10,134 nt of DNA from contig JAISXQ010000216.1 in assembly GCA_031270425.1 (NCBI GenBank), positions 1 to 10,134 of the forward strand, read 5' to 3'. The notes beneath the pieces were generated by a model. That model searched no databases, had not been told where the DNA came from, and saw only the letters and a program-made list of their open reading frames with translations. Of the stretch, positions 6,653 through 9,327 are shown one piece after another. Made by a program: the position numbers and the translations under genes. Origin of the DNA: Prevotellaceae bacterium (GTDB lineage Bacteria > Bacteroidota > Bacteroidia > Bacteroidales > Paludibacteraceae). Numbering within the stretch: position 1 is the stretch's first letter; each line of letters starts with the position of its first letter.

Positions 6653-7798
6653 ATGAAAACAGCATTAATTACCGGAATAACCGGTCAGGACGGCGCTTAT
6701 CTCGCCGAGTTATTACTAAAAAAAGGCTATGTGGTACATGGGCTTAAACGGCGTTCGTCGTTATTCAACACCGACCGCATCGACCATTTATACCAGGAAC
6801 CGCACATCGAAAACCGGAACTTAATCCTCCATTACGGCGATTTGACCGATTCGATGAATTTAACCCGCATCATACAGGAAGTTCAACCGGACGAAATATA
6901 CAATCTGGCGGCAATGAGCCATGTAAAAGTCAGTTTCGATACGCCCGAATATACGGCAAATGCCGACGGAATCGGAACGTTGCGCATTCTCGAAGCAGTC
7001 CGCCTGCTTGGATTGGTTAAAAAAACAAAAATTTACCAGGCATCTACCTCCGAATTGTACGGTTTGGTTCAGGAAGTCCCTCAAAAAGAGACAACGCCTT
7101 TTTATCCCCGTTCGCCTTACGCGGTTGCAAAACTGTACGCTTACTGGATTACGGTCAACTACCGCGAAGCATACGGAATCCACGCCAGCAACGGCATCCT
7201 GTTCAATCATGAATCTCCGCTGAGAGGCGAAACCTTTGTTACCCGGAAAATAACACGAGCCGTATCGCGCATAGCCATGGGAATGCAGAAAAAACTGTTT
7301 TTGGGAAATCTCTCCTCGCAACGCGACTGGGGACATGCCAAGGATTACGTCCGCGCTATGTATCTTATTTTGCAGCAGGACGCGCCCGACGATTATGTTA
7401 TTTCGACCGGAGTTACCACCGAAGTACGTGAATTTGTCCGTATGGCTTTTTCCGAAATAGGAATCAGCATCCGGTTCGAGGGTAAGGGAGCCAGCGAAAA
7501 AGGATACATCAGTTCGATAGACGAAGCCGTATTCAAAGAAATCGTAGGCGCTGAATTTTTATCGGTTGTAAGCAACATCAACTTTCCGGTAGTTGAAGTG
7601 GACGCAAACTATTTCCGTCCCACGGAAGTGGATTTGCTTATCGGCGACTCATCCAAAGCCCACCAAAAACTGAACTGGGAACCGGAATACGACCTGAAAG
7701 CCCTGGTCGGCGACATGATGCAGTCGGATATAAAACTGATGAAAAAAGAAACGTATTTGAAAGACGGCGGGTTTCGGATTTTGAATTATTTTGAATAA
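6653..7798 (+). CDS. gmd: GDP-mannose 4,6-dehydratase
   Basis: This 381-residue cytoplasmic enzyme converts GDP-D-mannose to GDP-4-keto-6-deoxy-D-mannose, the first step to GDP-L-fucose and related deoxysugars. It is an extended short-chain dehydrogenase with the NADP-binding loop TGITGQDG (residues 7-14) at the N-terminus, followed by [15 protein letters not shown] and [10 protein letters not shown], both hallmarks of Gmd. Catalytic residues appear in place: Thr132 and Glu134 in STSELYG, and Tyr156 with Lys160 in [19 protein letters not shown] and [12 protein letters not shown], also typical of the family, follow. Length is close to the usual 370-380. The ATG at 6653 directly precedes the [12 protein letters not shown] strand, so the start is secure. 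The partner enzyme Fcl is encoded downstream, but a GxxExxY cassette separates them. Confidence 0.97.
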
Positions 7799-7801
7799 CT
7801 G

Positions 7802-7830
7802 GCACACGGATAACACGGATTTGTACGGAT
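7802..7830 (+). repeat. Left 29-base terminal inverted repeat of the GxxExxY cassette
   Basis: This 29-base stretch matches the reverse complement of 8220-8248 at 26 of 29 positions. It begins three bases after the gmd stop codon and contains ACGGAT three times (7806-7811, 7815-7820, 7825-7830), spaced 9 and 10 bases apart. It ends five bases before the GxxExxY start codon. Confidence 0.85.
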
Positions 7831-7835
7831 ATTTC

Positions 7836-8219
7836 ATGATACACAAGGAACTGACAAATAAAATTATCGCGACATTTTATAAAGTATATAATGAACTCGG
7901 ATTTGGATTCCTGGAAAACGTATATCAAAATGCTTTGTATCTGGAATTGTTGGAAGAAGGCTTTATGATAGAAGTACAAAAGCCGATAGATGTACATTAT
8001 AGAAATTGTGTAGTGGGAAAATACAAGGCGGATTTAGTCGTAGATAAAAAAGTTATTTTAGAATTAAAAGCCGTTGACTATTTAGTGTTGGAACATGAAC
8101 TTCAATTGATAAACTACTTAAAAGCCACAGACATGGAAGTTGGACTGTTGTTAAATTTCGGAGTAAAGCCCGAAATCAAACGGAAGATATTTACCAATGA
8201 CAGAAAAAAATCAGTGTAA
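7836..8219 (+). CDS. GxxExxY protein (PD-(D/E)XK-like small protein)
   Basis: The 127-residue product carries the family motif in GFLENVY (Gly-x-x-Glu-x-x-Tyr) within NELGFGFLENVYQNAL. A later YKADLVVDKKVILELKAVD segment gives an Asp followed by Glu-x-Lys, the arrangement of a PD-(D/E)XK nuclease core, and HELQLINYLKATDMEVGLLLNFG is also usual for the family. Members average just under 130 residues and have no established function that I know of; nuclease activity is a prediction from the fold. I chose the ATG at 7836 rather than an in-frame TTG at 7791. The TTG lies inside the end of gmd and would translate the flanking inverted repeat into a low-quality N-terminal extension, whereas MIHKELTNKIIATFYKVYNELG is the expected start. 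The gene has low G+C and AT-ending leucine codons unlike its neighbours, suggesting a separate origin. The right inverted repeat begins at the base after the stop codon. Confidence 0.88.
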   Translation: MIHKELTNKIIATFYKVYNELGFGFLENVYQNALYLELLEEGFMIEVQKPIDVHYRNCVVGKYKADLVVDKKVILELKAVDYLVLEHELQLINYLKATDMEVGLLLNFGVKPEIKRKIFTNDRKKSV

Positions 8220-8248
8220 ATCCGTTCAAGTCCGTGTTATTCGTGTGC
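8220..8248 (-). repeat. Right 29-base terminal inverted repeat of the GxxExxY cassette
   Basis: It starts immediately after the GxxExxY stop codon and pairs with 7802-7830, with three mismatches. On the minus strand it contains one intact ACGGAT (8225-8220) and altered versions of the other two. It ends 17 bases before the fcl start codon. In a shared transcript the two arms could form a long stem with the GxxExxY gene in the loop. Confidence 0.85.
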
Positions 8249-8265
8249 AAAAAAAAACATGACTT

Positions 8266-9327
8266 ATGAATAACGAATCTAAAATATACATCGCCGGACA
8301 TAACGGCATGGTTGGCTCGGCAATCAAAAGAAATCTGGAAAAACGAGGTTTCACCAATATTACAGGACGTTCTATCGATGAACTTAATTTGATGAACGAA
8401 AAGGAAGTCCTTCGTTTTTTTGAGGCGGAACGTCCCGAATACGTTGTGCTGGCGGCGGCAAAAGTTGGCGGAATTGTAGCCAACAACACCTACCGCGCAC
8501 AATTTATATACGAGAATTTGATGATACAAAATCATATTATTCATCAAAGCTACCGTTTTGGCGTAAAAAAACTGCTCTTCCTCGGTTCTTCGTGCATTTA
8601 TCCGCGCATGGCGGAGCAGCCTATCAAAGAGGAGAGTTTGCTTACCGGATTGCTGGAACCAACCAACGAACCTTACGCCATCGCAAAAATTGCAGGGATA
8701 AAGATGTGCGAGGCGTATCACGCGCAGTACGGTTGTAACTTTATTTCCATTATGCCTACGAATCTGTACGGACCGAATGACAATTACGACCTCGAAAAGT
8801 CGCATGTCCTTCCTGCGCTGATACGTAAAATGTATCTGGGAAAAAGTTTACAGGAAAACAACTGGGCAAACCTGCGAAAAGACCTGAACAAACGCCCCGT
8901 AGAAGGAACAGACGGAACGGCGTCCGAGCAGGAGATACTTGTTCTCTTGGACAAATACGGCATAAAGCGCGACGGGAACACTGTTTCGATAACTCTTTGG
9001 GGAAGCGGTTCGCCCATGCGCGAGTTCCTGCATGTCGACGATATGGCGGACGCCAGCGTTTTCCTGTTGCTGAATTACGATGCACCGGATACAATTCCGT
9101 CTCAGGTCAATGCCGGATGCGGAAAAGACGTGAGCATCTACAACCTTGCCGGAATCGTAAAGAAAACCATTGCTTACAACGGCGAAATTATTTGGGATAA
9201 GACAAAACCCGACGGCGCTCCCAAAAAGCTGCTCGACGTTTCAAAACTGACAAACCTGGGATGGACGCCGTCGATAAGCCTGGAAGAGGGCATACGGCAG
9301 GTTGTGGCGGCGTATATAACCCGCTAA
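8266..9327 (+). CDS. fcl: GDP-L-fucose synthase
   Basis: This 353-residue cytoplasmic enzyme (also called WcaG) epimerises and reduces GDP-4-keto-6-deoxymannose, the Gmd product, to GDP-L-fucose with NADPH. The nucleotide-binding loop is GHNGMVG (residues 11-17). The family motif FLGSSCIYP supplies Ser108 and Cys110, NEPYAIAK supplies Tyr137 and Lys141, and MPTNLYGP ... SHVLPAL supplies His180; these line up with Ser107, Cys109, Tyr136, Lys140 and His179 of the E. coli enzyme. It is about 30 residues longer than the E. coli protein because of an insertion at roughly 194-236 ([17 protein letters not shown] onward), which is common in Bacteroidota homologues. The ATG at 8266 is five residues before the first beta strand. 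It follows the GxxExxY cassette and precedes a lipoprotein gene, on the same strand as both. Confidence 0.97.

Follow-up and report, generated by a model that had tools for sequence, protein, structure and literature searches.

The window, by which we mean the whole 10,134-nucleotide stretch of DNA analysed, is a 10.1 kb contig from a 1.39-Mb genome (G000) that is 55.6% complete. It carries two genes which, from their translations and from what is known of the enzymes, we take to be gmd and fcl, and between them lies a small GxxExxY gene closely framed by two inverted arms (Table 1). The arms are identical at 26 of 29 positions; in letter-shuffled flanks the best arm match averaged 16 and reached at most 19 of 29 (60 trials). 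The left arm stops five bases before the ATG and the right begins directly after the TAA. The sequence-only reading of this locus had described a tightly framed cassette lodged between gmd and fcl, and its arms, spacing and neighbours were all reproduced.

Table 1. Coordinates of the cassette and its neighbours in the window
Feature	Position	Strand	Remark
gmd (GDP-mannose 4,6-dehydratase)	6653..7798	+	presumed from translation; upstream neighbour, co-directional with the cassette gene
gmd-fcl intergenic stretch	7799..8265		467 bp, of which the cassette is 447 bp (7802-8248)
Left arm	7802..7830	+	three clear words: CACGGAT 7805-7811, CACGGAT 7814-7820, TACGGAT 7824-7830
GxxExxY gene	7836..8219	+	127 aa; ATG 7836, TAA 8217-8219
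Innermost right word	8210..8216	-	ATCAGTG (CACTGAT on the other strand), by reading; extension of the arm
Right arm	8220..8248	-	minus-strand words AACGGAT 8220-8226, CACGGAC 8230-8236, CACGAAT 8239-8245
fcl (GDP-fucose synthase)	8266..9327	+	presumed from translation; downstream neighbour, co-directional with the cassette gene

Each arm is an array of a short word, CACGGAT or near it, repeated in tandem 9-10 bp apart. There are three clear words on the left and four on the right, counting one within the gene: the last GxxExxY codons themselves encode the ATCAGTG word, so the right array extends into the gene. Over its whole length the gene has a G+C content of 32.3%, against 46.6% for gmd and 47.3% for fcl. 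It is poorer in G+C, as the earlier reading held, but the size of the bias was not the 27-30% against 53% given there; single 60-base lines range from 25% up to 58%. The cassette contains no transposase, the GxxExxY gene being its sole gene, with PF13366 and TIGR04256 as the sole profile matches.

The scores of the window protein, 135.5 bits for PF13366 (cut-off 22) and 130.2 bits for TIGR04256 (cut-off 35), leave its assignment to the GxxExxY family standing. Besides G22-E27-Y30 it has D66, E76-x-K78 and Q90-xxx-Y94. A D...ExK...QxxxY set marks the RecB/Cas4 nucleases, and these residues are intact in 153 of 162 homologues, seven of the 162 rows containing X. The product is tentatively predicted to have a RecB/Cas4-like PD-(D/E)XK fold. 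Fe-S cluster cysteines are a mark of Cas4; the window protein has one cysteine in its 127 residues and so lacks the Fe-S set that Cas4-type nucleases carry, and no CRISPR genes were seen in the window. It is also short compared with the roughly 200 residues of Cas4/RecB nucleases (SSO0001, 4ic1) and the LHK-Exo alkaline exonuclease (3syy). The family is large: one length-limited search yielded 7,274 candidates, of which 7,258 were homologues at E <= 1e-3. Phages gave no sign of being its vector, as the window protein had no tblastn match in 50,697 phage records; one relative was found among 52 pattern-matched stretches of viral contigs. Relatives occurred in 8 of 72,556 plasmid records, all typed non-mobilizable. 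The GxxExxY gene of a Bacteroides finegoldii plasmid record (L357) lies tight between radA and a gene for an FAD-dependent protein.

Arms of this kind are common around GxxExxY genes. Our 162 loci came from 101 relatives' genomes, 46 of them with PF13366, and from 80 named genome contigs, most of which carry Bacteroidota titles, a few others being labelled Planctomycetaceae, Anaerolineales, Armatimonadota, Cloacimonadota or otherwise, by unchecked bin labels. Arms were scored at 156 loci, leaving out six with short flanks. An inverted-arm score of at least 18 was found at 100 of the 156, against 15 of 3,577 same-size intervals in the same loci, and a score of at least 15 at 112, against 49 of those intervals. 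Homologues that consistently lack flanking repeats, which the sequence-only reading had thought would speak against it, are thus not what we see. When loci were swapped as a control, the 99th percentile was high, at 29, since a word is common to the loci of a clade; the same-size intervals were used instead. The 56 loci scoring below 18 count against a pairing of nuclease and word.

The word itself varies between loci (CNGAT, CNGAG/CNAAG, CNAAT, CNGAA, CATAG), with 68 of the 80 named loci in the GAT class and nine unlabelled. On a protein tree of 162 rows, 46 of them without a word label, 76 of 78 GAT-word rows fall within a single clade of 97 rows, and 18 of 19 RAG-word rows within a clade of 38. 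The word labels change 40 times on this tree, compared with 73.5 times when shuffled, and none of 200 shuffles was as low; close relatives inflate this result and the deep forks are backed by few columns. The small GAA and TAG groups do not cluster, which also counts against pairing. Taking the tree as a whole, word class follows the GxxExxY protein clade.

At the 45 of 162 loci that could be anchored at both ends, the outer words lie 436-634 bp apart (median 493). By reading, the palindrome extends a few bases outward, as AATRGAA...TTCYATT. Outside it we found no target-site duplication beyond chance at these loci: the best of 63 offset-length combinations was equalled by 1% of shuffles, and 31 of the 63 lay above the shuffled mean.

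The sequence-only reading had proposed looking for further copies of the arms, and they do recur in their own genome without the gene. In G000 there were 29 matches to a 35-base pattern of the GAT array, at most two mismatches being allowed, and none to its reversed control. Among 21 of these sites that were read, two being the window arms, ten are paired with an inverted copy no more than about 150 bases away. Part of the gene-less copies are hairpins of roughly 80-130 bp, and there are many single arms besides. The three hairpins tested for folding as single-stranded DNA had z-scores of -11.1, -9.0 and -7.9. Several hairpins have a common interior as well as common arms, which speaks for copying. 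Among 18 own-genome loci, three hairpins (L010, L011 and L024) are enclosed by another inverted repeat, GGCTGTCTCAAAA...TTTTGAGACAGCC, and four more are flanked by GGCTGTCTCAAAA on a single side; part of the copies may therefore have moved together with that repeat. In the L010 and L030 hairpins a small CCCGAT-type palindrome lies within an arm.

Copy number goes with the class of the resident gene for the two words covered, GAT and AAT. Across the 101 genomes, the GAT word was present in at least three copies in seven of nine with a GAT-class gene, against 6 of 92 others (Fisher 3e-6); set against genomes with PF13366 of other classes only, the comparison is with 4 of 37. The AAT word reached at least three copies in 5 of 10 AAT-class genomes and in 3 of 91 others (Fisher 1.6e-4). 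These counts include gene-flanking arms, which among the matches listed number three in G073, two each in G050 and G023, and one each in G072, G043 and G051; with these subtracted all six genomes still have at least three copies. The association has exceptions in both directions. At least three GAT copies without a GAT-class gene were found in G038 (63 copies, 62% complete), G091 (14, 99% complete), G070 (13), G020 and G077 (4 each) and G010 (3), and G031 has nine AAT matches without an AAT-class gene. Conversely, the pattern has no matches in G028 and G033, although the gene there is framed by arms of the GAT class, and five of the ten AAT-class genomes have fewer than three AAT copies. The GAT arms of G091 are similar, single and unpaired in the eight loci read (L163, L164, L198-L203), with arrays of other words beside two of them; this genome has no PF13366 or PF01797 match.

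Part of the arm copies could be compared with the arms at genes. In the four loci in register, the closest copies were those of the own genome in every case, narrowly so in three, with mean differences for own and other genomes of 6.5 and 8.6 at L054, 11.0 and 11.5 at L166, 9.3 and 9.6 at L167, and 6.0 and 6.6 at L169. Outside this comparison stood L001, one base out of register, L045 and L154, which gave no arm, and L048, whose genome had no copies among those listed. By reading of six tiles of 190-200 kb, word hairpins were absent from those of G024 and G023 and numbered one to three in the others, a scarcity that counts against the pairing. A contig of G043 (C50, 31-521 and 1951-2450) carries tandem AAT-word arrays in steps of about 155 bp.

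In G073 the reading frame of a capF-like gene (L165:3778-4953) runs through one gene-less GAT hairpin. Ten aligned capF-like homologues have stretches of variable length at this place; several shorter ones keep a piece resembling the right arm, P0186 has no likeness at all, and in P0199 and P0204 the hairpin peptide is multiplied in tandem. A loose pattern of the right-arm-like piece fits 44 of the 120 homologues listed. We rejected this gene as a clean case of presence and absence, since shorter homologues keep the arm-like piece. The adjoining wecB-like gene (L165:5017-6267) has a single arm in frame.

The same layout is found around an unrelated gene. Genes for S23/PF05635 four-helix-bundle proteins are flanked by inverted word arrays with a score of at least 15 at 24 of 30 loci, against none of 390 intervals. 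Their words are mostly of 7 bp (L266-L295, from relatives), with an 8-bp word at L065. The window's own genome also has S23/PF05635 loci flanked in this way (L063, L065). As described in part of PMC4990558, S23 is the open reading frame of the 23S rRNA intervening sequence. As S23 genes share it, the layout does not require a nuclease. This is the main doubt over a nuclease reading, as both layouts may depend on a host process.

On balance, and with much room for doubt, the sequence comparisons lead us to see the 447-bp block as one of the copies of a small insertion element that resembles a REPIN/RAYT pair, with a RecB/Cas4-like nuclease as its protein. Its ends are two arrays of one short DNA word, inverted relative to each other, and its sole gene encodes the predicted nuclease. 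The nuclease would recognise its own words at the DNA level, probably where the array is extruded or forms a single-stranded hairpin, and would cut at or near the array. Hairpins would be copied in trans to new places, mostly between genes, while the gene-bearing cassette would be copied in cis and more rarely. The element would thus act as a REPIN/RAYT pair does, with an unrelated nuclease replacing the RAYT. A broader proposal, which we put forward tentatively and regard as somewhat doubtful, is that GxxExxY proteins act as the enzymes behind a large class of bacterial mobile repeats, each clade having a tandem and inverted word of its own. Their hairpins would be moved by a RecB/Cas4-like nuclease alone, with no DDE, HUH, serine or tyrosine recombinase, and S23 proteins would serve a sister class, mostly with 7-bp words, competing for the same intergenic landing places.

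The strongest alternative is that the hairpins are spread by host processes such as replication slippage or template switching, or by a transposase in trans, and that GxxExxY, like S23, is a caught gene that survives otherwise. The S23 genes in the same layout would fit this, as would the GAT copies of G091, a genome with no PF13366 gene, and the nesting of some own-genome hairpins in another repeat. It does not fit the tracking of protein clade by word class, the association of resident gene class with copy number, or the retention of the nuclease residues in 153 of 162 homologues. A Y1 transposase also fails as the mobiliser. PF01797, the one transposase family for which the genomes were searched, has a match in 70 of 101, and none in G000 (55.6% complete) or in G043, which is 96% complete and has 16 AAT matches; a Y1/RAYT transposase was rejected as mobiliser on this ground. 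We consider a passenger role for the gene unlikely, though a serious contender.

The junctions in which these genes sit argue for insertion. The sequence-only reading had suggested comparing gmd-fcl junctions in relatives, and most of those examined are empty. A tblastn search with the gmd protein gave 30 loci, of which 29 were examined and one, L303, starting inside fcl, was left out. The two genes are adjacent in 25 of the 29, and 19 of these 25 have a gap of 0-68 bp. The occupied junctions hold GxxExxY in G000, a PF05635 gene in G024 and G064, gene-less word arrays in G033 (165 bp) and G062 (89 bp), and a different 118 bp in G067. G082 (L047), which was not in this set, carries a GxxExxY cassette at gmd-fcl as well; its words are of the AAT class and its protein belongs to a different clade, so that at least two entries into gmd-fcl must have taken place. 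At leuC-leuD, again with 29 of 30 loci examined (L348, starting near a contig end, was left out), 18 gaps are of 16-90 bp, five hold GxxExxY, one holds another repeat and five hold another small gene, three by a PF05635 match and two by resemblance. Three species of one genus (g2) show three states here: empty with 18 bp (G060), GxxExxY (G002) and a PF05635 gene (G034). The GxxExxY loci at leuC-leuD differ in word, with AAT, GAA and GAT all represented. By this comparison the GxxExxY cassette is an insertion. The minimal inserted element of the sequence-only reading, with a nuclease-like gene and no transposase, gains support from the empty junctions and the recurring arms; the homing-like movement proposed with it is so far not supported.

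In a homing-like process the nuclease would cut an empty junction and break repair would copy the cassette in. The entry of GxxExxY into gmd-fcl in both G000 and G082, with different words and from different clades, and its presence in 5 of 29 leuC-leuD junctions are consistent with this. By reading, however, the empty gmd-fcl and leuC-leuD junctions have no obvious common sequence, PF05635 genes are inserted at these junctions too, and gene-less copies lie at many unrelated places. We think homing improbable; a REPIN/RAYT-like pair, and not homing to a fixed site, is what the gene-less hairpins and the clade-specific word suggest. More improbable still is a resident operon gene of benefit to the host, for example in defence, with arms that are regulatory or protective repeats and do not move. 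Such a gene could explain why the site is kept between genera, nine GxxExxY loci having common leuC-leuD-type flanks at 64-85% DNA identity, but not why empty is the commonest state at both junctions, why three congeneric species differ at leuC-leuD, or why two different classes have entered gmd-fcl.

GxxExxY cassettes lie in operons in the sense direction. Orientation was scored with a crude ORF caller in 125 of the 162 loci, the other 37 being unscorable; at the 110 with co-directional neighbours the gene is sense in 107 and antisense in three. S23 genes behave similarly, with 26 sense and one antisense. For the nuclease-based element this orientation suggests that GxxExxY would be expressed by read-through from the host operon. 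The least probable reading is that an RNA stem formed by the arms excises the gene from operon mRNA, or that movement is RNA-mediated, as the sense bias and the part of PMC4990558 placing S23 in 23S rRNA intervening sequences might suggest, but that bias is also expected if the gene needs read-through, and G-U-compatible mismatches between arms are not in excess either in 84 GxxExxY loci (165 wobble-type, 165 non-wobble) or in 16 S23 loci (25 and 47, opposite to the RNA expectation). The equal numbers suggest that the GxxExxY arms are kept as DNA and not as an RNA stem, a function we rejected for want of any wobble asymmetry.

How the element would work is the known part of this picture; the unrelated protein and the other build of the repeat are the new part. 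REPIN/RAYT systems combine REP doublets with REP-associated tyrosine transposases, and parts of PMC3116915 and PMC3686654 describe several features that recur here. A gene is framed by inverted copies of the repeat, as in GxxExxY loci, and gene-less inverted doublets forming hairpins are dispersed in the genome. The number of repeats is tied to the presence of the cognate gene, an association that the GAT and AAT words show here with exceptions. Orthologous genes at one site have different repeat classes, comparable to the AAT, GAA and GAT words at leuC-leuD. Repeats sometimes remain without the gene in both systems; for RAYTs, part of PMC3686654 reports this and explains it by loss or switch. 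The differences are as clear. RAYTs are HUH Y1 transposases and the protein here is a predicted PD-(D/E)XK nuclease. Each arm here consists of three or four short words at a spacing of 9-10 bp, and the GTAG/GTGG tetranucleotide which, in the part of PMC3686654 consulted, stands next to the palindrome is by reading absent from both 29-base window arms on both strands. GxxExxY cassettes also sit inside operons on the sense strand, and the same layout is found with a four-helix-bundle protein. The unrelated protein and the missing tetranucleotide set the element apart from REPIN/RAYT as a member.

Other known elements are less similar. MITEs with an autonomous DDE transposon likewise have terminal inverted repeats, short gene-less copies and mostly intergenic insertion, but the cassette has no transposase and the 45 anchored loci gave no target-site duplication. 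Rickettsia palindromic elements are read as part of a protein-coding frame; the in-frame capF-like hairpin can be set beside them by description only, and is from another phylum. The 23S rRNA intervening sequence with its S23 ORF is also a small element with a single small ORF (part of PMC4990558), and S23 homologues enter the same junctions here as GxxExxY. It differs in lying in rRNA and being excised by RNase III, according to the same part of that source, and GxxExxY arms bear no sign of selection for RNA pairing.

In a search of 5.39 million papers, few of them preprints or from subscription journals, we found no published account of repeats around GxxExxY genes and no match to the six repeat words. 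The passages on GxxExxY in PMC8934634 and PMC12085832 contain nothing on repeats, and no assigned function for the family was found in the literature searched.

Word repeats of the GxxExxY type are present in many of the genomes examined. If the pairing of nuclease and repeat is real, the GxxExxY family would gain a role that can be tested at the bench, and a class of common palindromic repeats would be explained. The proteins credited with mobilising bacterial repeats would then include a nuclease superfamily as well. Through the match between word and clade one could study, as in a natural experiment, how sequence specificity arises in a small RecB-like nuclease.
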